Notes: generated by a model not told the origin, from the sequence alone. A stretch of 37,083 nucleotides of DNA from Myxococcales bacterium (GCA_002721815.1 PBLQ01000011.1:197682-234764); one strand, 5' to 3'. Positions 16,122-27,716 are shown, counted from the first letter of the stretch. Numbers and translations: made by a program.

Positions 16122-17267
16122 CTAGGCCAAACGCCTAAGTTTCAAGAGCGTAATCTCTTGCTCGGGCCCCAGTCGCATGGGCGGGCCCCAAAACGTGGTG
16201 CCGCGATTCACATACACCCACATGTCTTCATGGCGATAAAGCCCAGCCACGTATTTTTGCACCAGGTGGATCAGGAAATTGTACGGAAAGTACTGGCCAC
16301 CGTGGGTGTGACCGCTCAGTTGCAAGTCGTATTGGCCCCGTTCGGTGAGAAACGCCACTTTGGGTTGGTGGGCCAAGAGAATCTTCACGTCCGCATCTTC
16401 AGGGGCACCTTCACACGCAAGCCCGGGCTGGCAGCGATGGCTCTCAATAAAACGCGCGCCGTGTAAATCGGTCACGCCCGCCATCATGATTTTACCACCG
16501 GGCACCTCAATCACATCATGGGCATTGTTAAGGACCTTAACGCCTTGCTGTTCAAGAAAATCACACCACCTTAAAGCGCCCGAATAATATTCGTGGTTGC
16601 CCGTGCAAAAGTAGGTGCCATGGGGGGTGGCGACATTGAGGAGAGTTTTCACTTGTTCACCCAGATCAGACACAGAGCCATCGATAAGGTCACCGGTGAT
16701 CACATACATGTCGGGCTTGAGTTGTTGCACTTGCTCGGCGATGTGAGCAATTTTTTCGGCGCGCACGGTGGAGCCAATGTGAATGTCGCTCACCTGGGCG
16801 ATGGAGAATCCCTCCAACGCTTCCGGCAGGTTCTTGATGGGGACTGACACCTCTTGGATGTCGGGCATTTGCCGCGCATTCACGGCTGCCGCCAAGCCCA
16901 CGGAGGAGGCGCCCGCCAAAACGCCCCAGTTGGCCGCGTCTTTAAACAGGGCCCGGCGCTCGGGAGATACCAAATCTGGCAACAGGTTGTACTTGTTGCA
17001 AAGCCACATGACGATCAACGCGAGATCGCGCAGAACGATGAGCGTGTAGGCCAAAAACAAAAAGCCCATCATGAGAAACGCGACGGTTTTGAGCCAAGGG
17101 GTCCCGATGGTGAAGGCGAGCGGTGTCACGACCAGGCCCCCGATGACCAAAAGGCAAAATGCGATTTTAATTCCGCGCGGCACATCCCATCCGGCCAAAA
17201 AGCGCCAGGTGAGGAATGCATTGAGCCCCGCCCAGAACGTAATGAAAAATACAAATCGGATGATCAT
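16122..17267 (-). CDS. Membrane-anchored metallophosphoesterase (YkuE/YaeI-like)
   Basis: The C-terminal two thirds is a calcineurin-like phosphoesterase with all metal motifs: 'DIHIG' from Asp161, 'GDLIDG', 'GNHEYY', and 'GHTHGGQYFPY'. Family members hydrolyse phosphoester or pyrophosphate bonds, often in UDP-sugar or phospholipid substrates. The first 100 residues hold three membrane helices. They are followed by 'SPERRALFKDAANWGVLAGASS', a degenerate twin-arginine-like motif before a hydrophobic segment, suggesting that the catalytic domain faces the periplasm. ATG 17267 is chosen; the longer frame from 17333 adds an Arg/Gly-rich stretch unlikely to be translated. It is divergent from the beta-helix lipoprotein gene. 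Confidence 0.87.
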   Translation of the reverse strand: MIIRFVFFITFWAGLNAFLTWRFLAGWDVPRGIKIAFCLLVIGGLVVTPLAFTIGTPWLKTVAFLMMGFLFLAYTLIVLRDLALIVMWLCNKYNLLPDLVSPERRALFKDAANWGVLAGASSVGLAAAVNARQMPDIQEVSVPIKNLPEALEGFSIAQVSDIHIGSTVRAEKIAHIAEQVQQLKPDMYVITGDLIDGSVSDLGEQVKTLLNVATPHGTYFCTGNHEYYSGALRWCDFLEQQGVKVLNNAHDVIEVPGGKIMMAGVTDLHGARFIESHRCQPGLACEGAPEDADVKILLAHQPKVAFLTERGQYDLQLSGHTHGGQYFPYNFLIHLVQKYVAGLYRHEDMWVYVNRGTTFWGPPMRLGPEQEITLLKLRRLA

Positions 17268-17377
17268 TCCAGCGGAATACAAAGTACGTCTCCCTACCCG
17301 GCCCGGCCCAGCGCGAGCAACTCCATAACCCATTGAAACTAGGTTTTATTTCCGTTTTTTTCATTTTTGACCGTTTA

Positions 17378-17413
17378 TTGTCAAATTCCCGTCACAATCG
17401 TTTGAGATACACT
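17378..17413 (+). promoter_or_regulatory. Pho-box-like promoter 1 (beta-helix lipoprotein)
   Basis: The 18-mer TTGTCAAATTCCCGTCAC at 17378-17395 has two GTCA half-sites exactly 11 bases apart, as in the PhoB box (CTGTCAT, four bases, CTGTCAT). It matches 13 of 18 consensus positions. A third, degenerate half-site (TTGACC) lies another 11 bases upstream, at 17367. A -10-like TACACT follows at 17408-17413, 12 bases after the box, close to the 11-base spacing of phoA in E. coli. The assignment to PhoB rather than another OmpR-family regulator is inference. Confidence 0.55.
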
Positions 17414-17451
17414 GCATGCTTTTAAAAAATAACTTTTCCAGGAGATCCAAA

Positions 17452-18798
17452 ATGAAAAAAGCGCTATGCACCCTGTCTTTCCTCGCTTTCGCAATCGGCT
17501 GCGGTCCTGAGGCCGAAGATGTGGCTGAAAAAATCGAAGGTTGTCCCGCCGGTACCTCTGCGATTAACCCTGATGCAGACATGCCCGTCTGTGAACTCGT
17601 GGGTGTGATCACCGAAGACCTCACCTTAGATGCCGAACGTGCGTGGCTCTTGAACGATGCCGTATATATCGGTGATGGCACCACCACCAACACCCTGACC
17701 CTCGAACCCGGAACCACCGTGTACGGAAAAATGGGCAGCAAAGCTTATTTGGTGATTCAGCGCAATGCTCAAATCATCGCTGACGGCACGGCCGAAGCAC
17801 CCATCGTTTTCACTTCTGAAGCCCCTGTGGGCGAGCGTAAAGTGGGCGACTGGGGTGGTATCGTCATCAACGGCAAAGCCCCTGTGAACCTCTGCCCCGA
17901 CATGGACGACTGCAACATTGAGGGCGAAGCTGACACAGGCACCTACGGTGGCAACATCTCTGATGATAACAGTGGCATTCTTCGTTACGTTCGCGTGGAG
18001 TTCGCGGGCAAAGACGTGGACAGCGAGAACCAGCTCAACGGCATTGGATTTCAAGCAGTGGGCAGCGGTACTGTGATTGAAAACATTCAGGTACACATGG
18101 CCCAAGACGATTGCATTGAATTCTTTGGAGGCACCGCTAACTTCCGTAACGTGCTTTGTACCGGCATTGGTGACGACAACTTGGACTGGACTTTTGGCTG
18201 GACCGGTAAAGGCGAAGGCCTTGTGGTTCAACAATACGACGGCATCGGTGAGCGCGGCATCGAAGCTGACAGCAACAAAACAGCGGGCACCACACCTGTT
18301 TCGAAGCCTACTTTGAGCAACATTACGCTGGTGGGTGCACCCAACTCCGACACCTCTGACGTGGGCATGCTCTTCCGTCGCGGTACAGGCGCAACCATTT
18401 ACAACGCAGTGGTCGTTGGCTTCAAATCTGCATGCATCGATGTGGACGGCGAAGAAACCTTCGATTTGGCTGAAACCAACCTCACCATCGAAAACAGTGT
18501 GTTCGCATGCGACACCACTTTCAAAACCGATGACGAAAAAGACGACAATGAGCAAACCATTGTTGACCCCATCGATTTGGAAGAATACTTCATGGACGAA
18601 GCTTTGAACAACTCTGAAGCCAACCCAGAAGATGTTCTAGAGGACGCTTTCAATGAACTCGCGCCTAACTTCAGCGTGAAGGGCTCTTTCACCAGCAAAA
18701 CCCTTTCCGACAGCTTTTTCCAAGCATCCGGTTACGTGGGTGGGGTTGACCCAAGCAGCCCTTGGACCCAAGACTGGACTGTAAGTCACCGCGAATAA
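17452..18798 (+). CDS. Right-handed beta-helix lipoprotein
   Basis: The 448-aa product starts at ATG 17452 behind AGGAG. Its lipoprotein signal peptide ends in 'LAFAIGC', so Cys18 would be lipidated. The mature protein is acidic and made of short beta-helix repeats: 'LTLEPGTTVYGK', 'AQIIADGTAEAPIVFTS', 'DWGGIVINGKAPVN', 'LRYVRVEFAG', 'VHMAQDDCIEFFGGTANFRNVLC'. Cys pairs and an Asp/Glu-rich loop ('DEKDDNEQ') are present. Proteins of this type are common beside TonB-dependent receptors in Bacteroidota and Gammaproteobacteria; the function is not established. Here it lies upstream of, and co-oriented with, a TonB system and shares its promoter motif. A surface-exposed ligand-binding partner for the receptor is a reasonable inference. 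An intrinsic terminator follows. Confidence 0.85.
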   Translation: MKKALCTLSFLAFAIGCGPEAEDVAEKIEGCPAGTSAINPDADMPVCELVGVITEDLTLDAERAWLLNDAVYIGDGTTTNTLTLEPGTTVYGKMGSKAYLVIQRNAQIIADGTAEAPIVFTSEAPVGERKVGDWGGIVINGKAPVNLCPDMDDCNIEGEADTGTYGGNISDDNSGILRYVRVEFAGKDVDSENQLNGIGFQAVGSGTVIENIQVHMAQDDCIEFFGGTANFRNVLCTGIGDDNLDWTFGWTGKGEGLVVQQYDGIGERGIEADSNKTAGTTPVSKPTLSNITLVGAPNSDTSDVGMLFRRGTGATIYNAVVVGFKSACIDVDGEETFDLAETNLTIENSVFACDTTFKTDDEKDDNEQTIVDPIDLEEYFMDEALNNSEANPEDVLEDAFNELAPNFSVKGSFTSKTLSDSFFQASGYVGGVDPSSPWTQDWTVSHRE

Positions 18799-18820
18799 GA
18801 GACTTTTTTGTCTAAAGGCC

Positions 18821-18862
18821 AGCGGGCGCTTCGTTTTTTACGGACCGCCCGCTTTTCTTTTG
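18821..18862 (+). terminator. Intrinsic terminator after beta-helix lipoprotein
   Basis: An eight-base-pair stem (AGCGGGCG at 18821-18828 with CGCCCGCT at 18846-18853) encloses a 17-base loop and is followed by a T-rich run with one C. It ends the lipoprotein transcript just before the next Pho-box-like promoter, so the two units are transcribed separately. Confidence 0.85.
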
Positions 18863-18872
18863 TTTTTCCTGA

Positions 18873-18907
18873 GCGTCACGGACCTGTCACTTTGACCTGT
18901 GCAGAGT
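18873..18907 (+). promoter_or_regulatory. Pho-box-like promoter 2 (DUF3450-ttpC-exbB)
   Basis: The 18-mer GCGTCACGGACCTGTCAC at 18873-18890 has GTCAC twice, 11 bases apart, matching 12 of 18 Pho-box consensus positions. A -10-like CAGAGT lies at 18902-18907, 11 bases after the box. The sequence from here to the start codon, including the AGGAGCACC ribosome-binding segment, is clearly related to the leader of exbD at 21734-21806. Confidence 0.55.
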
Positions 18908-18947
18908 ACTTCCATCAAGATTTTGATCCCTTTCATAGGAGCACCCT

Positions 18948-19718
18948 GTGTCAACAAAACGAAACCTATTAGCAAGCCTGGCAATCGGGGCCATCGCGGC
19001 TTCAACCGCCCACGCGAAAGATCTCACGGCTTTGGCCAAAGAGCTGGCCAACTTGCGCCAAGAAGTGGCCGAACTCGAAAGCCAACTCGGTGATAAACGA
19101 GCTCAGTATCGCGCTCAAGAAGACAGTCTATCTCGACAAGTGGCTGAAATGGAAGGCGACGTTCGCAGAGAAGAACTGCTGCTGGATAAAGTTCGTTTGG
19201 AAATCAACAGCCGTGAACAACGCATCCAAGAAATCGGTGGTGAAGAAACCCCGATTAAAACCACCGTCCTCAAATCGTGCGACGAGTTAGAACAACACAT
19301 TAGCAGCTCATTGCCATTCAAACGCGCAGAGCGATTGGCCTCAGTGACCGAGTTGAAAAAACAAATCAACAGTGAAGTCCTCAGTCCTCGTAAAGCAGCC
19401 TCCCAGGTATGGGGCATTATTCAAGACGAGGTTCGGCTCTCACGGGAAAACATTCTCGATCAACAAATCATTGAAGTGGACGGCAAAACCTTCCAGGCCA
19501 AAGTGATTCATATCGGTATGGTGGCTTTGTATTTTGAGCTGCCCAACGGTTTGAATGGTTACGCCAAGAAAAACGGTACCCATTACGAAATGACGCTGGC
19601 CAGCGATCCTCAGGAACAAGAAGCCATCCAAAAACTGTTCGAGGATTTTTCAAAACAAATTCGACAAGGTGAATTCTACCTGCCGCACGTCCAAATCAGT
19701 CAGGGAGGTGTACAATGA
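18948..19718 (+). CDS. DUF3450 periplasmic coiled-coil protein of the TonB cluster
   Basis: The 256-aa product starts at GTG 18948, six bases after AGGAG, with a Sec signal peptide ending 'ASTAHA'. Residues 25-95 form a long coiled coil ('LTALAKELANLRQEVAELESQL'). The C-terminal half has the DUF3450 core: 'LPFKRAERLASVTELKKQI', 'SPRKAASQVWGIIQDEV' and 'AKVIHIGMVALYFELPNG'. DUF3450 genes sit directly upstream of ttpC-exbB-exbD-tonB in Vibrio and Shewanella TonB2-type loci, and the same order is seen here. The role is unknown but it must act in the periplasm with TtpC. Its stop overlaps the ttpC start by four bases (ATGA). Confidence 0.85.
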   Translation: MSTKRNLLASLAIGAIAASTAHAKDLTALAKELANLRQEVAELESQLGDKRAQYRAQEDSLSRQVAEMEGDVRREELLLDKVRLEINSREQRIQEIGGEETPIKTTVLKSCDELEQHISSSLPFKRAERLASVTELKKQINSEVLSPRKAASQVWGIIQDEVRLSRENILDQQIIEVDGKTFQAKVIHIGMVALYFELPNGLNGYAKKNGTHYEMTLASDPQEQEAIQKLFEDFSKQIRQGEFYLPHVQISQGGVQ

Positions 19719-21145
19719 AAAAGTTGAGTTTTATCATTGCCGCCGGGCTTCTTTGTGCCCCCAGCTTGTACGCCGAAACCACGCCCAAAGCTTCCAAGCC
19801 CGCAAAAGCGGCGCCCGAAAAATCGAAAAAGCAAGAGACGGCATCATTGGCCCGCGCTTACAAGCGTGAATTTGCCTTTCTCGAATCTGAGAAACGGGCA
19901 TTGCTCAAAAGGCTCAAAAAAATCGAGACGCAGCATGAAGACAACAGAAACGGCCTCGAAGATAAAATCGCATTGTTGAAGGCCAAATTGCTTTCTTTTT
20001 CTGCGAAGAGCACCACCCAGAACAACCGTTTGTTCAAACTCGAAGACCGTTTGTCGTCCACAGAGGCAGCGGCAGACAACTTACAAAGCATCGTTGAGCA
20101 AGCCCAAGAAGAGGGCCTGCTTGCCAAAGATCCTGAAAACCAAGAGGCGTTGAGCGAGCAACTCGCGAAGACCTTCACCAATGGGATTGCCAAAGCCAAG
20201 GCAAGCGCCACCACTGTGAAGACACAAGGTCACTTCTTTCTCACCTCGGGGGAAAAAGTCGCTGGGACCCTGATGCATATCGGGAAAACCATTAGTTTTG
20301 GTGTGAGTGAAAAGGAATCGGGCTTTATCACCCCCCTTGATGCAGACAATTATCGGGTGATGAAAATCAGCCCAGAAGCGCAAAAACTACAAAACCATGC
20401 CGCGTCCACTGCCAGCCTCACAGGCTTTGTGTACGAGCCGACCGAAAAAGGCATTGCCCCCAAGAAAGAAAAAACACTTGAAGAGTTTTTGGCTGCGGGT
20501 GGGATTATTGGCTACGTGATCATCGGGCTTGGTTTGTTTGCCCTGCTCATCGCCCTTCTACGTACCTTTAACCTTCGTCGACTCGGCTCCAAGCGTAACG
20601 ACTCAGACGCCACTGTGTGGGACGCCATTTCCAATCAAGATTGGGACAAAGCCAATCAAGAACTGCAACATTTGTCGGGCTCTAAATCTCGATTGCTCCA
20701 TGAAGGCATTGCGTTACTGAGAGAAGGACGCGCTGAGATCATGGACAAGCTAGAGGAAATCTATCTGTCAGAAGAAGGTAAAATCGATCGCATGGGCGCC
20801 ATGATTTTGGTCTTCGCTGCCGTCGCCCCACTAATGGGCCTCCTTGGTACGGTGACCGGTATGATTTCTACCTTCGATATTATCACCGAGTTTGGTACTG
20901 GCGACCCCAAACTGCTCTCCAGCGGTATCTCAGAAGCCTTGGTCACCACCGAGCTGGGCCTCATCGTTGCGATTCCATCTTTGTTGCTGGGCAACATGCT
21001 CAATGGCTGGGCGGACAACATCAAAGGCGAGCTGGAATCATTGATTCTCAGAATCCAAAATGTGGCCACCGAAAATACGCCTGGCCCCACCCACGCTATT
21101 AAAAAAGCCCCCGAAACCGTTCCACCTGTTTTGAAGGTCGGTTAG
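19715..21145 (+). CDS. TtpC-like MotA/TolQ/ExbB proton channel protein
   Basis: The 476-aa product has a Sec signal peptide (about residues 1-20), a Lys/Glu-rich coiled coil (about 40-150) and a periplasmic domain with 'FFLTSGEKVAGTLMHIGKTISFG'. A membrane helix follows near 260 ('GGIIGYVIIGLGLFALLIALL'). The C-terminal MotA/TolQ/ExbB domain includes 'GAMILVFAAVAPLMGLLGTVTGMISTFDIITEFGTGDPKLLSSGISEALVTTELGL'. This is the architecture of TtpC in Vibrio TonB2 systems, a fourth component needed beside ExbB, ExbD and TonB. An ATGA junction joins it to the DUF3450 gene, and exbB starts three bases after its stop. The periplasmic segment around 'HIG' resembles the DUF3450 protein. Confidence 0.9.
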   Translation: MKKLSFIIAAGLLCAPSLYAETTPKASKPAKAAPEKSKKQETASLARAYKREFAFLESEKRALLKRLKKIETQHEDNRNGLEDKIALLKAKLLSFSAKSTTQNNRLFKLEDRLSSTEAAADNLQSIVEQAQEEGLLAKDPENQEALSEQLAKTFTNGIAKAKASATTVKTQGHFFLTSGEKVAGTLMHIGKTISFGVSEKESGFITPLDADNYRVMKISPEAQKLQNHAASTASLTGFVYEPTEKGIAPKKEKTLEEFLAAGGIIGYVIIGLGLFALLIALLRTFNLRRLGSKRNDSDATVWDAISNQDWDKANQELQHLSGSKSRLLHEGIALLREGRAEIMDKLEEIYLSEEGKIDRMGAMILVFAAVAPLMGLLGTVTGMISTFDIITEFGTGDPKLLSSGISEALVTTELGLIVAIPSLLLGNMLNGWADNIKGELESLILRIQNVATENTPGPTHAIKKAPETVPPVLKVG

Positions 21146-21148
21146 TTC

Positions 21149-21673
21149 ATGGAAATGCTCAAAGACGTACAGGACTATATGGTTTCAGGGGGGTTTGTCA
21201 TGCCGCCCCTGATGCTCTTGACCTTTGCCCTTTGGTACCAACTCACCGAGCGCTATTTTATTTTGAACGAAAACAAAAACATCAAAATTAGTCTCAGAAA
21301 ACAGCTCCAGAACGTGAACCCCTACGCATTGGATTACCTTTTTCTTCAGGTACAAACCCACATGAAAAAGGGCAAAATGACCATCAAGGCCATCGTGGGC
21401 AGCGCACCCTTGCTGGGGCTTCTGGGGACCGTGAATGGCATGATCACCACTTTTGACTCACTGGGTGACATGACCCTTTTCTCCCAAACGGGCGGTGTGG
21501 CCGGCGGCATCTCTCAAGCCCTTATCACCACCCAAATGGGCCTGTGCGTGGCCATTCCAGGGGTGATCGCAGGTCGCATTTTAGACCGTCGGGAAACCGC
21601 CATTTGCAACGAGATGGAAGAATTCAAAAAAGCCCTTCTCAACCAAGAGACTTCCGCCGCCCCTGCCAGCTAA
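21149..21673 (+). CDS. exbB: ExbB-like proton channel subunit
   Basis: The 174-aa product is a short MotA/TolQ/ExbB-family protein of the ExbB2 type. Helix 1 lies near residues 14-30 ('GGFVMPPLMLLTFALW'). The conserved C-terminal pair of helices includes 'AIVGSAPLLGLLGTVNGMITTFDSLG' and 'GGISQALITTQMGLCVAIPGVIAG'. With ExbD it would conduct protons and energise TonB. It follows ttpC after three bases. A hairpin-plus-T-run and a new promoter lie downstream, so in this locus exbB and exbD are in separate transcription units. That is unusual, because the two proteins form one complex. Confidence 0.92.
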   Translation: MEMLKDVQDYMVSGGFVMPPLMLLTFALWYQLTERYFILNENKNIKISLRKQLQNVNPYALDYLFLQVQTHMKKGKMTIKAIVGSAPLLGLLGTVNGMITTFDSLGDMTLFSQTGGVAGGISQALITTQMGLCVAIPGVIAGRILDRRETAICNEMEEFKKALLNQETSAAPAS

Positions 21674-21696
21674 GTATCTGTAAAATATAGTTTATC

Positions 21697-21731
21697 ACTG
21701 AGGCCGAGCACCGTTTTCCTTAGTTTTTCTT
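21697..21731 (+). terminator. Probable intrinsic terminator between exbB and exbD
   Basis: ACTGAGG (21697-21703) pairs with CCTTAGT (21718-21724) in a seven-base-pair stem with one G-T wobble and a 14-base loop, followed by TTTTTCTT. It is weaker than the hairpin after the lipoprotein gene, so some readthrough into exbD is likely. Its position just before a new promoter supports the call. Confidence 0.6.
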
Positions 21732-21733
21732 CC

Positions 21734-21768
21734 CCGTCACATAACTGTCACGTTGATCAGCGCAGACT
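21734..21768 (+). promoter_or_regulatory. Pho-box-like promoter 3 (exbD-tonB-TPR-receptor)
   Basis: The 18-mer CCGTCACATAACTGTCAC at 21734-21751 matches 16 of 18 positions of the PhoB box, including the A/T-rich four-base spacer. A -10-like CAGACT lies at 21763-21768, 11 bases after the box, in exactly the position of CAGAGT in promoter 2. A conserved TTGA and GCAGA, the box and an AGGAGCACC ribosome-binding segment are shared with the leader at 18873-18947. This is the best of the three boxes. Confidence 0.65.
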
Positions 21769-21806: not shown

Positions 21807-22217
21807 ATGAGAATGAAACGCAGACAAAAAAATGAGCAGGACGGGATCGATATCTCGCCACTCATCGATATGGTTTTCATTCTGCTGATCTTTTTCATGG
21901 TCTCCACCACTTTTGTGAAAGATGCCAAAGTGGACATCAACCGACCCACGGCTTCAACGGCCACGGCCGCTTCCGAAAAATCCTTGCGCGTGACTTTAGA
22001 CAGCCAAGGACAAGTGACCATCGACGGCAAAGAAGTTCGCTCCTGGATGCTTCAAAGCCGCGTTCGAGATTTTTTAAAGTCTGCCACATCCAAAGAAGTT
22101 CTCATCGTGACAGACAAAAGCATTTTAGCAGATCAACTCATTCACGTGGTTGATCAATGTAGATTGGGCGGCGCTCAGCAAATCGCAGTGGCGACCATCA
22201 AAGAGGTAGGCTTATGA
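21807..22217 (+). CDS. exbD: ExbD-like TonB energiser subunit
   Basis: The 136-aa product starts at ATG 21807, seven bases after AGGAG; the longer frame from 21753 would run through the promoter. After a short basic cytoplasmic tail comes 'DISPLIDMVFILLIFFMVSTTF', a single membrane helix with the essential Asp at residue 21. A periplasmic ExbD/TolR domain follows ('LRVTLDSQGQVTIDGKEV', 'VLIVTDKSILADQLIHVVDQCRLGGAQQIAVAT'). Its stop overlaps the tonB start (ATGA), so the two are translationally coupled. Confidence 0.94.
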   Translation: MRMKRRQKNEQDGIDISPLIDMVFILLIFFMVSTTFVKDAKVDINRPTASTATAASEKSLRVTLDSQGQVTIDGKEVRSWMLQSRVRDFLKSATSKEVLIVTDKSILADQLIHVVDQCRLGGAQQIAVATIKEVGL

Positions 22218-22846
22218 TCGAAATGAAAAACTTCAGATTCCGCGCATTGTTCACCGCTGCTTTCGTTAGCTTTGGCGTGCTCGCTTTAGCTGCTGGCCTC
22301 AATGAACTCACAGCCACCAAAGACAAAAAAGACATTGGCCCTGCCGTGGCTTTTCAGGTCAAAAAGCAAGAACCCAAAAAGGCCAAAAAAGTAGTTCGCA
22401 AAAAGCGCAACAAGCCCAAGCCGCGCACCAATAAAGCGCCTCCTCCCCCCATGCTCAGTGGCGCAGGGGCCCTTTCTGGCGTGGCCGTGGCTGGTCTGAA
22501 CTTCTTGGATGACGACAGCTTGAACAACGAACTTTTCGGCGACACCAAAAACACTGTCATGACCGAAGAAACCGTTGACAGCCTCCCCCAACCAAGACGC
22601 CAAGTGCCTCCAGGCTACCCTGACACCGCACGTCACAGTGGCATCACCGGTCAGGTCACATATTCTTTGCTCATCGGCACCGATGGTCGCGTGGAACGCA
22701 TTAAAGTCGCCACAGCGTCACCCATGGGTGTGTTTGAACAAGAAGGTCAAAATGCCTTGTCACAATGGGAGTTCGAACCTGCGACCTTTCAAGGCAACCC
22801 CGTTCGGGTATGGGCCACACAAACCCTGCGGTTTGAACTCAACTAA
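22214..22846 (+). CDS. tonB: TonB energy transducer
   Basis: The 210-aa product has an N-terminal membrane anchor (about residues 10-28) and a Lys/Pro-rich periplasm-spanning linker (about 46-80, 'KKAKKVVRKKRNKPKPRTN'). A Gly/Ala segment follows, then a C-terminal TonB domain from about residue 127 ('PRRQVPPGYPDTARHSGITG' to 'VWATQTLRFELN'). The linker is short compared with classical TonB, as in TonB2-type proteins that work with TtpC. It starts within the exbD stop codon (ATGA), and the TPR gene starts three bases after it ends. It is expected to energise the receptor encoded at 24025. Confidence 0.93.
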   Translation: MIEMKNFRFRALFTAAFVSFGVLALAAGLNELTATKDKKDIGPAVAFQVKKQEPKKAKKVVRKKRNKPKPRTNKAPPPPMLSGAGALSGVAVAGLNFLDDDSLNNELFGDTKNTVMTEETVDSLPQPRRQVPPGYPDTARHSGITGQVTYSLLIGTDGRVERIKVATASPMGVFEQEGQNALSQWEFEPATFQGNPVRVWATQTLRFELN

Positions 22847-22849
22847 GCC

Positions 22850-24013
22850 ATGAACACCTGTAAAAACTTACTCTCTTTGGTGCTTATCTTGACCCACCTG
22901 TGTGTGTCAGGCGCCGCCATGGCAGACGAGCCAAAAGAGGAAGTGGACCCTTTGGCCATCGCCACCGTTCTCCTAAAGGCGGGGCAATACGAAAAAGTGG
23001 CACAGGTTTTTGCAGAGCTAAATACGAAAAAATTAACTCCGGAGCAGCTGAACCGCTTACACCTTCTCAAAGCGGAATATCATCTCCAAAGACAAGATTA
23101 TGATGCGGCAGAGACTAATTTCCGGAAAGCCCTAAACCAATCAAAAGAAAAAGACTTGGTCCGCCTGAAACTGATCAAGGTTCTCTTTCTTCAAAAAAAG
23201 CCCACCAAAGTGCTTCACGAAATCGCGCTTCTCACGCCCCAAACCCGTCACCAACCCCTCACCCTGCAATTTGAAGCAGAGGCTTATTTCTTAACCGATG
23301 CCATCGAAAAAGGTTTCGAAGTACTCAGTCTCGCACAAGCCAAATACCCTGACGAAATTCGGTTCCCACTAAAGCGTGTGGTGGTATTGGCTGAGCATTC
23401 TTTGGCTCAAACCGCCGTGGAAGAAGCGCTGGAGTTATTGGGCCACCCGGGATGCCGCGCCGAAAACCTGTTGCAAATCGCACAAATCTTCACGCAGCAA
23501 AAAGACTACAAAAACGCGGTCATTTTGCTCGAAGGTGCACGCTTGCAGCTGTTCGGCACCCAGAAAATAGCCAAAGCCCTGGCTTTCAACTACGCACAAA
23601 TGGGCGAGTACAAACTGGCTGGAGAAGTGCTGTACCAAAGCGGACTTGAGCAAGATGAAATCAACCTGCAATCTGCTGAACTGTTTCGAAAAGCAGGCGA
23701 TTATCATCGGGCTGAATGGATGAATGCGCAGGTGGAAAACCAAGAAAAGAAATTACTCCAACGGTTTGGGATGTTACTACAAACAAAATCGTTTGAGTCT
23801 GCCGCAGCTTTGGCACCTCGACTGCGGCGAAATGGACTAACCCAAGAGGGACAAGTTCAATATGGCCTTGCCTACGCATATTTCCAAACCGGTCAGTTTC
23901 AGAAGAGCAAGAGCACTTTACAAAGCATTCGTGACGACGCCTACTTCGAAGATGCTGCCCGACTGCTGCAAGTGGTCGGTGATTGTATCGAGAAGCCCGT
24001 TTCATGTAACTAA
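22850..24013 (+). CDS. TPR-repeat protein of the TonB cluster
   Basis: The 387-aa product has a Sec signal peptide (about residues 1-25, ending 'VSGAAMA') and a series of helical tetratricopeptide-like repeats, for example 'LLKAGQYEKVAQVFAELN', 'YHLQRQDYDAAETNFRKAL', 'QIFTQQKDYKNAVILLEGA' and 'AYFQTGQFQKSKSTLQSI'. A TPR gene in this place is typical of ttpC-exbB-exbD-tonB loci. The protein probably scaffolds the complex in the periplasm. There is no visible ribosome-binding site; it is three bases from the tonB stop and likely translated by coupling. The receptor gene follows after 11 bases. Confidence 0.87.
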   Translation: MNTCKNLLSLVLILTHLCVSGAAMADEPKEEVDPLAIATVLLKAGQYEKVAQVFAELNTKKLTPEQLNRLHLLKAEYHLQRQDYDAAETNFRKALNQSKEKDLVRLKLIKVLFLQKKPTKVLHEIALLTPQTRHQPLTLQFEAEAYFLTDAIEKGFEVLSLAQAKYPDEIRFPLKRVVVLAEHSLAQTAVEEALELLGHPGCRAENLLQIAQIFTQQKDYKNAVILLEGARLQLFGTQKIAKALAFNYAQMGEYKLAGEVLYQSGLEQDEINLQSAELFRKAGDYHRAEWMNAQVENQEKKLLQRFGMLLQTKSFESAAALAPRLRRNGLTQEGQVQYGLAYAYFQTGQFQKSKSTLQSIRDDAYFEDAARLLQVVGDCIEKPVSCN

Positions 24014-24024
24014 AGGTCATCCCC

Positions 24025-27000
24025 ATGTACAAACTGCCGAAATTCTGTTTGACAGTCGTGACCCTTATCTTTTTGGCGATGCCGGCTGCCGCGCAAGGCC
24101 AAGGGCGATTGGCGCTGTTTCTCTTTAACGGCGAAAAAGAAACCCCTCTCAAGGACGTTGCCGTGACTTTCCCCGACGGTAGCCAGGCGCAAACCGATGA
24201 CAAAGGCAAAGTGGTTTGGCGTGTAGATGCGGGAACCTACACTGTCCAATTGCACCTGCAAACCCCCACCATTCCGCTCGAAGTCACCATCCAATCTGCG
24301 AGCATTACTGAAATTATTTACACCCACTTCCCCTCTGGTGCCGAGGCCGAAACACTCATCGAATCCAAACCACTGGAAGAAGAAACCGTCGAAGTAGAAA
24401 GAGAAGACCTGGGTCCAGTGATTCCAGTGCGCGGCAAGGTGTTATCCGAAGATGACAACGCTCCCATTCCAGGCGTGCAAATCTGGGTCCAAGATTTCCC
24501 AGACAAAACCATCACAAATGAAGAGGGTGTCTTTGAAGCGTTCTTGCCTTCAGGAAAAATCAATATTTCATTTATTCACAAACAATACGCCCTGCTCATT
24601 AAAAAAGATTTTGAAATCGACAATGGCAATGCGAACGACCTGCTTTTCAAAATGACACCCAAAGGTTTGCAATTAGCAGACTTTACCGTGAAAGCCCCTC
24701 ACGTGGCTGGTGGGGTCGCGGCCTTAATCGACCAAAAAAGAAAAGCTTCTGGCGTGACCGAGGTCTTAGGTGCCGAAGAAATGAAGCAAAATGGGGACAG
24801 CAATGCCGCCGCCGCGCTTCAACGCGTCACCGGACTCACCGTGGTCGGTGGGCGATATGTTTTTGTGCGTGGCCTGGGCGATCGGTACATCACCACCCTC
24901 CTCAATGGCTTACAGCTTCCCAGCCCCGAACCCGAACGACGGGTCATCCCACTCGATATTTTTCCTGCCGGCGTCTTGGAGCAAATGACCATCGCCAAAA
25001 CCCTCACCCCTGATCTGCCCGGCGCCTTTGGGGGCGGCACCATCTTGTTAAAGACCAAAACGGTGCCGGAACAAGATTACCTGAAGATTGGGACCGGTAT
25101 TTCCTATTTGACCGGTTCCACCTTCGAAGATGGCTGGTCCTATGATGGCGGTGCGCTGGACCTTCTTGGTTTTGACGATGGCAACCGCGCTTTACCCCAA
25201 GAAGTCCAAGAAGCCACGGAGCAAGGCCCCGTGCTTCGTGGTGGCGGGCGATTTTCTGATACGGGTTTTTCCGATGAAGAACTCGCCAAAATGGGTCAAA
25301 GCTTTAACAATAATTGGGAGCAAACCCCCCACACCGTCCTGCCAAACATGAAACTGAACCTCTCTGCAGGCAAGAAGTTTAAAACCAATGGTGTCAAATG
25401 GGGCGTTTTAACCGGATGGAATTATCGCGTTCAAGACAGTGTCATTGAACGAACCACCCGCACCTACGAAACAGGGGTTACGGACTTACAACTCAGAAGC
25501 AGTGCCAACCTCATCCGAAGTCAGCAACGCATATCTCTCGCCGGCCTCGTTTCGCTAGGGGCTGAGTTTGACAAACAAAACTCGGTACAGGCCATCACCC
25601 TACTCACCCGTATTTCAGACAAAACCGCCGATGTGGTGAACTCGTTTTTCAACATTACCGACTCACCTTTTTCCGACTTTTACACCCGTCGGCTCGATTG
25701 GGTCGAGCGCATGCTTATCTCCCAACAGTTTGTGGGAGAACACCCTTTATTCAACATTCCGGACTGGAAACTAAACTGGCGCTATGGTCTTTCATTCGCC
25801 TCGCGCGAGCAACCCGATCGCCGTACGGTGGATTATGGCCAAGATCCGGATGGGACTGAATACCGCTTGCGAGGAGAAACTGGGGACAACGAGCGCTTCT
25901 TTTCTGATCTTTTTGACCAAGCCCATCATGCGGCCATTGATACCCAATCCAAGGAACTCGCACCGGACAGTACCGGCATCCAATTTAAAACGGGTTTGAA
26001 CTATTTTTTCAAGGATCGATTGGTGGATTCCAGACGCTTCAACCTCGCACCACCGGTCTTCACTGATGAATGGCCCGAATTCGATACCTTGGTGTATCAA
26101 AATCCCGGTGACATTTTTGTTCCAGAGAACATTAATTCAGATCGGTTCTCCTTCATTGAGACCTCAAAAGATACCGATTCCTACAAAGCCTATCAGCACA
26201 TTGGTGCCGCCTACCTTTCCAATGATTGGCGGTTCGCACCCCGATGGACTTTGACCAGCGGTTTACGTTTTGAAAGCTCTTATCAAAACGTGCAAGCTTT
26301 TAAGCCTGGGGTACCTGACAACATCAAAGCCGAAGCCGATCTGCTCAAGAATGATTTTCTGCCCTCTGCGCTTCTTTCCTGGCGCTTCACCCAAAACATG
26401 CAGTTGCGCCTGGCAGGGTCTTCTTCTGTGTCGCGCCCCAACTTTCGCGAGCTGTCCAACACAGGCTTTTTTGATGTGGAGCGAGGACGTCTCATCAGAG
26501 GAAACAGTGAATTGGAAAGTTCACAGATCCACCATGCTGACATGCGGTGGGAATGGTATTTTTCGCCCAAAGAAAGTTTAAGTTTGGCCGCCTTTGGCAA
26601 GTACTTCAACAAGCCCATCGAGATGGTTTATAAAATGAGTGCCGAAAATGCCATCACCTATCAAAACGCGAATTACGCCGAAAATGCAGGGGTTGAAATT
26701 GAAGCCCGGAAGAGTTTCGACTTCATTCATAAAGTGCTGGCGCCCCTATTTATCTCGGGCAACGCGTCATGGATTTATTCTCGGGTGTACCTCGAAGAAG
26801 GCGCCTCGCTCTCTTCTTCAACGGAACGCCCTCTGCAAGGCCAATCCCCTTGGGTCATCAATGGGCGGCTGGCATGGACCGAAAAAGCCCGTAGTATTTC
26901 TATGCTCTACAATGTGTTTGGGCCGCGAATTGTCGAGGTAGGTGACAACGGCGTTCCCGACCTTTACGAGCAACCCTTTCACCGCTTAGACTTTGTCTAT

Positions 27001-27144
27001 CGGGAGAACATGGGGCCCGTTTCCCTGGCTTTAAAGGGACAAAACCTTTTGGACTCCACCCAACAAGTCACCATTGGTGACAAGGTGGTGCTCGATGTGA
27101 GACCCGGCAGCCAAATTACGCTGGACATGTCCTTTAGTTTTTAG
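24025..27144 (+). CDS. TonB-dependent outer-membrane receptor
   Basis: The 1039-aa product has a signal peptide (about 1-24). Two carboxypeptidase-regulatory-like beta domains follow (about 28-105 and 133-210, the second with 'VRGKVLSEDDNAPIPGVQIWVQD'). The plug carries 'LQRVTGLTVVGGRYVFVRGLGDRYITTLLNGLQLPSPEPERRVIPLDIFP' in pieces near 265-320. A 22-strand-type barrel ends 'QITLDMSFSF', with a terminal Phe. Receptors with the 'RGLGDRY ... LPSPEPERRV' plug signature are common in Bacteroidota and some Proteobacteria; their ligands are mostly unknown. Being the last gene of the exbD-tonB unit, it is probably the dedicated client of this TonB system. Its TAG overlaps the PAP2 gene stop by four bases. 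Confidence 0.93.
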   Translation: MYKLPKFCLTVVTLIFLAMPAAAQGQGRLALFLFNGEKETPLKDVAVTFPDGSQAQTDDKGKVVWRVDAGTYTVQLHLQTPTIPLEVTIQSASITEIIYTHFPSGAEAETLIESKPLEEETVEVEREDLGPVIPVRGKVLSEDDNAPIPGVQIWVQDFPDKTITNEEGVFEAFLPSGKINISFIHKQYALLIKKDFEIDNGNANDLLFKMTPKGLQLADFTVKAPHVAGGVAALIDQKRKASGVTEVLGAEEMKQNGDSNAAAALQRVTGLTVVGGRYVFVRGLGDRYITTLLNGLQLPSPEPERRVIPLDIFPAGVLEQMTIAKTLTPDLPGAFGGGTILLKTKTVPEQDYLKIGTGISYLTGSTFEDGWSYDGGALDLLGFDDGNRALPQEVQEATEQGPVLRGGGRFSDTGFSDEELAKMGQSFNNNWEQTPHTVLPNMKLNLSAGKKFKTNGVKWGVLTGWNYRVQDSVIERTTRTYETGVTDLQLRSSANLIRSQQRISLAGLVSLGAEFDKQNSVQAITLLTRISDKTADVVNSFFNITDSPFSDFYTRRLDWVERMLISQQFVGEHPLFNIPDWKLNWRYGLSFASREQPDRRTVDYGQDPDGTEYRLRGETGDNERFFSDLFDQAHHAAIDTQSKELAPDSTGIQFKTGLNYFFKDRLVDSRRFNLAPPVFTDEWPEFDTLVYQNPGDIFVPENINSDRFSFIETSKDTDSYKAYQHIGAAYLSNDWRFAPRWTLTSGLRFESSYQNVQAFKPGVPDNIKAEADLLKNDFLPSALLSWRFTQNMQLRLAGSSSVSRPNFRELSNTGFFDVERGRLIRGNSELESSQIHHADMRWEWYFSPKESLSLAAFGKYFNKPIEMVYKMSAENAITYQNANYAENAGVEIEARKSFDFIHKVLAPLFISGNASWIYSRVYLEEGASLSSSTERPLQGQSPWVINGRLAWTEKARSISMLYNVFGPRIVEVGDNGVPDLYEQPFHRLDFVYRENMGPVSLALKGQNLLDSTQQVTIGDKVVLDVRPGSQITLDMSFSF

Positions 27145-27716
27145 TCAGAGGTGGCGGGCCTTACATTCCAACGCACCACCCAAGCAGCTACCGCCCCCAT
27201 CACCAACCCCACGGTCCAGCCAGCCAACACATCACTGGGATAATGGACCCCCACAAACACCCTTGAGAGCCCCACACACATCCCAAACAACAACACGGGC
27301 AGCCCTTCTTGAACCTTGGGCCGCCAGACCAACAAAGCAGCGATGGCCAGGCTCATGCCGTTGGCCGCGTGATTGGACGGCAACGAAAAGCCGGTGCCGC
27401 AGTTTTCTAAGGCCACGATGGCGTCCATGACTTGGCAAGGTCGGGCCCGCGCAAACAGTGGCTTGAGTACCTGATGGCACAAAGGGTCGGTGAGGATGGT
27501 GGCCAACACCATGCTCCAAAACACATGCCAGATTTTGGGCGATTTGAAAATGTAAGCGAACAGGGGTAACAGGATTCCCAATGGCCACAACAGCATGCGG
27601 TGGCTAAAAAATTGGGCCAAAGCCTTTAAGCCGCCATTGGCATTGGCAGCTTCATTAAGCGACAAAACCCAAGTTGTATCAAAGGCTTCCAAGTTTGGGC
27701 CCTCCTGCGGCCCCAT
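27141..27716 (-). CDS. PAP2-family membrane phosphatase
   Basis: The 191-aa product has about five membrane helices and all three PAP2 motifs: 'KPLFARARP' (85-93), 'SLPSNHAAN' (112-119, where the usual Gly of PSGH is Asn) and 'SRVFVGVHYPSD' (151-162), with the catalytic His158 and Asp162. Such enzymes dephosphorylate undecaprenyl pyrophosphate, phosphatidic acid or phosphatidylglycerophosphate in the membrane, with the active site facing the periplasm. The exact substrate cannot be read from sequence. It lies convergent to, and overlapping, the receptor gene, so it is not part of that operon. Confidence 0.9.
   Translation of the reverse strand: MGPQEGPNLEAFDTTWVLSLNEAANANGGLKALAQFFSHRMLLWPLGILLPLFAYIFKSPKIWHVFWSMVLATILTDPLCHQVLKPLFARARPCQVMDAIVALENCGTGFSLPSNHAANGMSLAIAALLVWRPKVQEGLPVLLFGMCVGLSRVFVGVHYPSDVLAGWTVGLVMGAVAAWVVRWNVRPATSD

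Follow-up and report, generated by a model that had tools for sequence, protein, structure and literature searches.

The locus described here raises the question of what a TonB system with a complete energiser of its own imports, and which signal switches it on. It lies in a window of 37,083 nucleotides from a Myxococcales bacterium (GCA_002721815.1, PBLQ01000011.1:197682-234764), where eight neighbouring genes code for a lipoprotein, a DUF3450 protein, a TtpC-like protein, ExbB, ExbD, TonB, a TPR protein and a TonB-dependent receptor, Table 1. TonB systems are usually taken as iron, vitamin or glycan importers. A preliminary description of this window had proposed Pho-box-like repeats at three promoters of the locus. 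According to our analysis, the locus is most likely a PhoB-activated, phosphorus-scavenging module of the TonB2 type, i.e. a member of a PhoB-type regulon that couples an ElpS-type lipoprotein and a receptor to a dedicated TonB2-type motor.

To evaluate the repeats, we compared the three promoters with the E. coli Pho box (CTGTCATAWAWCTGTCAY) and with shuffled sequences. GTCA-N7-GTCA is present on the plus strand at all three promoters (17380-17394, 18875-18889 and 21736-21750), within the 18-mers that had been claimed, and the 11-base period is exact in each. The match counts given earlier, 13, 12 and 16 of 18, were reproduced. The chance of a plus-strand GTCA-N7-GTCA per shuffled upstream region is 0.001, 0.0007 and 0.0025 for promoters 1, 2 and 3, respectively. 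The match score alone is weaker evidence than the repeat pattern; shuffled versions of promoter 1 reach 13 in 1.9% of the cases and those of promoter 2 reach 12 in 6.7%, while 16 is reached at promoter 3 in none of 3000. Very likely, the three sites are binding sites of a PhoB-like regulator, driving a phosphate-responsive outer-membrane uptake system.

The rarity of the repeats was estimated by pattern searches of the 4.6-Mb assembly (draft, 98% complete). The form GTCAN5CNGTCAC occurs five times and its reversed control pattern 12 times; of the five sites, three are promoters 1-3 and two fall within reading frames. For GTCAC-N6-GTCAC there are ten occurrences, seven of them within genes and three in promoters, namely promoter 2, promoter 3 and the promoter of a DUF47-PiT operon. 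A genome search with the extended motif of promoters 2 and 3 (TGTCACNTTGANCNGNGCAGA, at most three mismatches) gave no other convincing promoter.

The DUF47-PiT promoter served as the reference phosphate site in place of pst promoters, because PhoU had no match in this genome and PstB none above the cut-off. Each was found in 13 of 14 control genomes; the absences are provisional, since the assembly is a draft. The DUF47-PiT promoter was tested as a site picked by function, not by sequence. The single PiT-type transporter detected in the genome is located behind a DUF47-like gene, a label given from its place before PiT and from its sequence by eye, with no family search. About 55 bases before this gene, in the correct orientation, is GTCACAAAGGCGTCAC, the same box as at promoters 2 and 3. 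Chance would place the full GTCAC-N6-GTCAC in the 200 bases before DUF47 with a probability of about 0.0001, and the looser GTCA-N7-GTCA with one of 0.005. Because no PhoU or PstB was found, PiT, with this box at its operon, is the probable inner-membrane route for phosphate. PhoU gave no match in 11 of the 15 class genomes searched, this one included, and Pst-free phosphate control may be common there.

Two OmpR-type regulators were detected in the genome. For one of them (L003, 12169-12873) the best model is PhoB (235 bits, cut-off 296), and the kinase gene that follows it has PnpS/PhoR as best models (346, cut-off 400). When aligned to PhoB of E. coli, this regulator keeps most of the recognition helix (RTVDxHxxRLR) and of the wing (T-x-R-G). 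About 130 residues of the kinase are predicted to form an extracytoplasmic domain, and it is a guess that this domain replaces Pst-PhoU as the input. Beside the regulator pair we also observed a cobalamin riboswitch (RF00174, 107 bits; L003, 14072-14249, minus strand), just 5' of a gene for a His/Asp-rich lipoprotein of 327 amino acids.

The same eight genes are found in Deltaproteobacteria, Nitrosomonas, Marinicella, Lysobacterales, Methylomonas and Oceanospirillales, and partially in Campylobacterota and Pseudoalteromonas. Box matches of at least 14 of 18 are present in 11 of the 47 regions 5' of a lipoprotein or DUF3450 gene, in none of the 59 regions before other cluster genes, and in 8 of 237 before non-cluster genes (Fisher p 2e-5 for the enrichment, with regions that are not fully independent). 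With the consensus reversed, 2 of 47 pass the same threshold, and with scrambled tandem 11-mers the mean is 1.3 of 47. At least 15 matches are obtained in 7 of 103 cluster regions, where shuffles predict 0.

Several of these loci also have phosphate genes as neighbours. In L055, which is among the closer homologues (lipoprotein 47% identical), GTCACAGCGCTGTCAC is found within a row of similar repeats 5' of the lipoprotein gene, and a type I phosphodiesterase is encoded nearby. PstB and PhoU are located directly upstream of the cluster in an Oceanospirillales metagenome-assembled genome (L076). In Nitrosomonas JL21 (L075) PhoB is divergent from the cluster with a 15/18 box, and PhoX is further out; PhoB also neighbours the cluster in N. 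aestuarii (L069). Plasmid pBGP9 of Alteromonas macleodii carries, in annotated order, phoB, phoR, phosphate-binding protein, oxygenase, lipoprotein, receptor, DUF3450, TtpC, ExbB, ExbD, TonB and TPR, with boxes of 14-15 matches of 18 before the phoB, lipoprotein and DUF3450 genes. Given the boxes at two or three promoters here and their return at these genes in bacteria that are not related, phosphorus scavenging under phosphate shortage is very probably the role of the system.

No description of this exact cluster was found in the open-licence literature; its parts were compared with known systems. The lipoprotein matches lipoproteins of lipoprotein-receptor-gsp loci with E-values of 7e-57 and 1e-20. 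The homologues of the lipoprotein and of the receptor in Indioceanicola and Sphingomonas precede a type II secretion cluster, the order reported for elpS-cc0171-gsp in Caulobacter. Caulobacter crescentus ElpS (CC0170) is a surface lipoprotein made under phosphate starvation and coded beside the TonB-dependent receptor CC0171 (PMC2996285), and the Caulobacter PhoB regulon includes the secretion system and several receptors (PMC11208175). By sequence the lipoprotein of the window is a homologue of the lipoproteins of ElpS-type loci, as the receptor is of theirs, and its likeness to ElpS itself goes through the locus order. However, no type II secretion genes are seen adjoining here; a complete TonB2-type energiser is attached instead. 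The lipoprotein-receptor-secretion loci of Indioceanicola and Sphingomonas (L169, L170, L171) are plasmid-borne, as is the Alteromonas cluster.

In Flavobacterium johnsoniae, lipoprotein/receptor pairs are among the genes most strongly induced by phosphate depletion, and the lipoproteins are said to resemble ElpS and polygalacturonases (PMC8115612). Its PUSIII/PUSIV systems pair such lipoproteins (FI/FII) with TonB-dependent transporters, with FII in the phoBR cluster. This likeness is one by description, and a dedicated TtpB/TtpC/ExbB/ExbD/TonB set is not mentioned in the part of the text at hand. The same study reports that just 26 of the 102 Flavobacterium strains have pstS (PMC8115612). 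In Pseudomonas aeruginosa PUMA3 (phdA-pdtB-exbB2D2-tonB4) PhoB, acting at Pho boxes, turns on the ExbB, ExbD and TonB genes when phosphate is low; in contrast to our locus, PUMA3 also requires the extracytoplasmic function sigma factor VreI, and the part of the paper at hand does not describe an ElpS-like lipoprotein or TtpB/C/D (PMC4971064). The energiser itself, TtpB(DUF3450)-TtpC-ExbB-ExbD-TonB-TtpD(TPR), has the order of Vibrio vulnificus TonB2, in which the DUF3450 protein is called TtpB and the one with TPRs TtpD, with the lipoprotein and receptor in addition. The Vibrio operon, however, is regulated by iron and has a Fur site, and an ElpS-like lipoprotein linked to it is not described (PMC6957404). 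The E. coli-type PhoB regulon is similar in its 11-base-period tandem repeats with GTCA cores before transcription units, its PhoB-like regulator and PhoR-like kinase, and a boxed phosphate transporter promoter. It differs in that here PhoU, and PstB above the cut-off, were not found, the regulator and kinase are under the family cut-offs, and the kinase carries the extracytoplasmic domain.

The surroundings of the repeats agree with the preliminary description only in part. Conserved flanks had been claimed for all three promoters, but they are shared by promoters 2 and 3 alone. These two align from a T-rich tract as far as the ribosome-binding site, over about 115 bases, with a score of 73 against 36 for the best of 500 shuffles, while promoter 1 has no overall similarity to either. 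Promoters 2 and 3 are thus probably one duplicated promoter, and as near-copies they make the number of independent sites about two, not three. A -10-like hexamer beyond each repeat was likewise confirmed at promoter 1 only (TACACT, 4/6, 12 bases on). As for the proposed three separate units, a strong hairpin-T terminator splits unit 1 from unit 2 (18801-18870, fold energy -26.7 kcal/mol, z -5.05). Promoter 3, in contrast, has no comparable element before it (z -1.15) and seems to be an internal promoter. The terminator scan missed the hairpin between units 1 and 2, which folding reveals, and a sigma-70 scan gave about as many promoters as shuffled sequences.

The other proposal made for the window, PhoB-type control with co-induction under phosphate limitation, is supported by the boxed DUF47-PiT promoter, by the PhoB/PhoR-like pair with its mostly kept recognition helix, by the recurrent boxes and pho/pst neighbours, and by the homology to ElpS-type lipoproteins. 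In the mechanism that we propose, the PhoR-like kinase would phosphorylate the PhoB-like regulator in low phosphate, and two regulator molecules would occupy the 11-base repeats in a head-to-tail arrangement, recruiting RNA polymerase at promoters 1-3 and at DUF47-PiT. The lipoprotein, DUF3450-TtpC-ExbB and ExbD-TonB-TPR-receptor would in this way be activated separately. On the cell surface the beta-helix lipoprotein may capture, present or expose a phosphorus-containing substrate, which the receptor would import, powered by the dedicated TonB2-type motor, and PiT would carry the freed phosphate inward across the inner membrane.

Several observations weigh against phosphate control. The genome count of GTCAC-N6-GTCAC, 10, is not above that of the reversed control, 8, and the argument from this form therefore depends on where its copies lie. 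At promoters 2 and 3 there is no hexamer with at least four -10 matches 6-21 bases downstream. Both the regulator and the kinase score under the curated cut-offs, the regulator's own promoter has no clean 11-base tandem, and with no Pst/PhoU found the usual signal input is missing. Among the related loci, no Pho box of at least 13 matches was found in 17 of 32. No box is evident in the Myxococcota relatives L050-L054 and none comparable in L030-L034; several of these relatives resemble continuous operons. Phosphate control of the module is therefore not universal.

Other readings of the same repeats have to be considered. Tandem-repeat binding is common to OmpR-family regulators, and the second OmpR-type regulator of the genome also has PhoB as its best model (160 bits), so that the repeats could be bound by another member of the family and the unit could answer a non-phosphate signal. 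We regard this as unlikely, as only two such regulators were detected and the second is less PhoB-like than the first (160 vs 235 bits), while the same box stands before the PiT operon and the relatives tie these genes to pho/pst genes. Uptake of iron or another metal complex, the role of the Vibrio TonB2 systems, with repeats unrelated to regulation, would fit the gene order, which is that of V. vulnificus tonB2, an iron-repressed operon (PMC6957404). It is nevertheless very improbable, given that no Fur-box-like match above shuffles is found in the three promoters (10, 10 and 11 of 19) and that the lipoprotein family and receptors are phosphate-linked in Caulobacter and Flavobacterium.

The alignment of promoters 2 and 3 from T-rich tract to ribosome-binding site could also mean that the two are alike by duplication alone and that the GTCA repeats have no function. 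However, the same repeat is found without these flanks at promoter 1 and at the PiT promoter, boxes stand before the same genes in unrelated lineages, and both copies have kept the repeat bases, which makes this the least probable of the explanations.

The eight-gene TonB2-type module recurs among the Proteobacteria together with Pho boxes and neighbouring pho/pst genes, and this gives the ElpS lipoprotein family and the adjoining TtpB/TtpC/TtpD sets a testable function, outer-membrane phosphorus capture. More tentatively, and with somewhat more doubt than confidence, the locus may represent a widespread, unnamed phosphorus-scavenging system in which an ElpS-type beta-helix lipoprotein and a receptor have their own TonB2-type motor under PhoB control. 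In this genome it would work without Pst-PhoU, so the PhoR-like kinase would sense phosphate otherwise, with its extracytoplasmic domain as a possible sensor. As a Pho-type circuit seems to run in this genome without Pst and PhoU, phosphate sensing there is open to direct study.

Table 1. Features of the locus, with positions counted from the first letter of the window.
Feature	Positions	Strand	Basis or remark
Calcineurin-like phosphoesterase, divergent from promoter 1	16122..17333	-	PF00149
Pho-box-like tandem repeat, promoter 1 (TTGTCAAATTCCCGTCAC)	17378..17395	+	5' of lipoprotein gene; 13/18 to E. coli consensus
Surface lipoprotein, 448 amino acids, right-handed beta-helix	17452..18798	+	AlphaFold2, Foldseek, homologues in lipoprotein-receptor-type II secretion loci
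Hairpin-T terminator-like element between units 1 and 2	18819..18862	+	Folding
Pho-box-like tandem repeat, promoter 2 (GCGTCACGGACCTGTCAC)	18873..18890	+	12/18 to E. coli consensus
TtpB-like protein (DUF3450), TonB2-type accessory	18948..19718	+	PF11932, E 1.2e-26; name after PMC6957404
TtpC-like MotA/TolQ/ExbB protein, N-terminal extension	19715..21145	+	PF01618; alignment
ExbB	21149..21673	+	PF01618
Pho-box-like tandem repeat, promoter 3 (CCGTCACATAACTGTCAC), near-copy of promoter 2	21734..21751	+	16/18
ExbD	21807..22217	+	PF02472
TonB	22214..22846	+	PF03544
TPR protein at TtpD position	22850..24013	+	TPR families; order as in V. vulnificus tonB2 operon
TonB-dependent receptor, CarboxypepD_reg domain, TIGR01782-like	24025..27144	+	Domain searches
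PAP2-superfamily phosphatase, convergent on receptor gene	27141..27716	-	PF01569

Two genes flanking the module code for phosphatase-type enzymes, and for neither was a homologue found in the related loci examined. The promoter 1 repeat lies between the lipoprotein gene and the divergent phosphoesterase gene, which is a possible member of the unit. No box was found for the PAP2-superfamily phosphatase, probably a mere neighbour. The receptor shares 29% identity, over about 870 amino acids, with its counterparts in the Alteromonas and Indioceanicola loci.

For the lipoprotein, neither Pfam nor NCBIfam gave a match, and a search of solved-structure sequences with its profile gave none either. 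Its N-terminus, MKKALCTLSFLAFAIGCG, resembles a lipobox, as judged by eye. The AlphaFold2 model has a mean pLDDT (predicted local distance difference test) of 88.9, and its best Foldseek matches are right-handed beta-helix proteins, e.g. PL6 lyases and tailspikes, with modest TM-scores. A SusD-family lipoprotein partner, as in SusCD-like PusCD systems, is not indicated, as no Pfam match is obtained and the predicted fold is a beta-helix instead. In some related loci there are two ElpS-like lipoprotein genes in tandem, or one long gene with two to three copies (L051, 7275-8795 and 8931-10382; L100, 12847-15600; L114, 434-4498).

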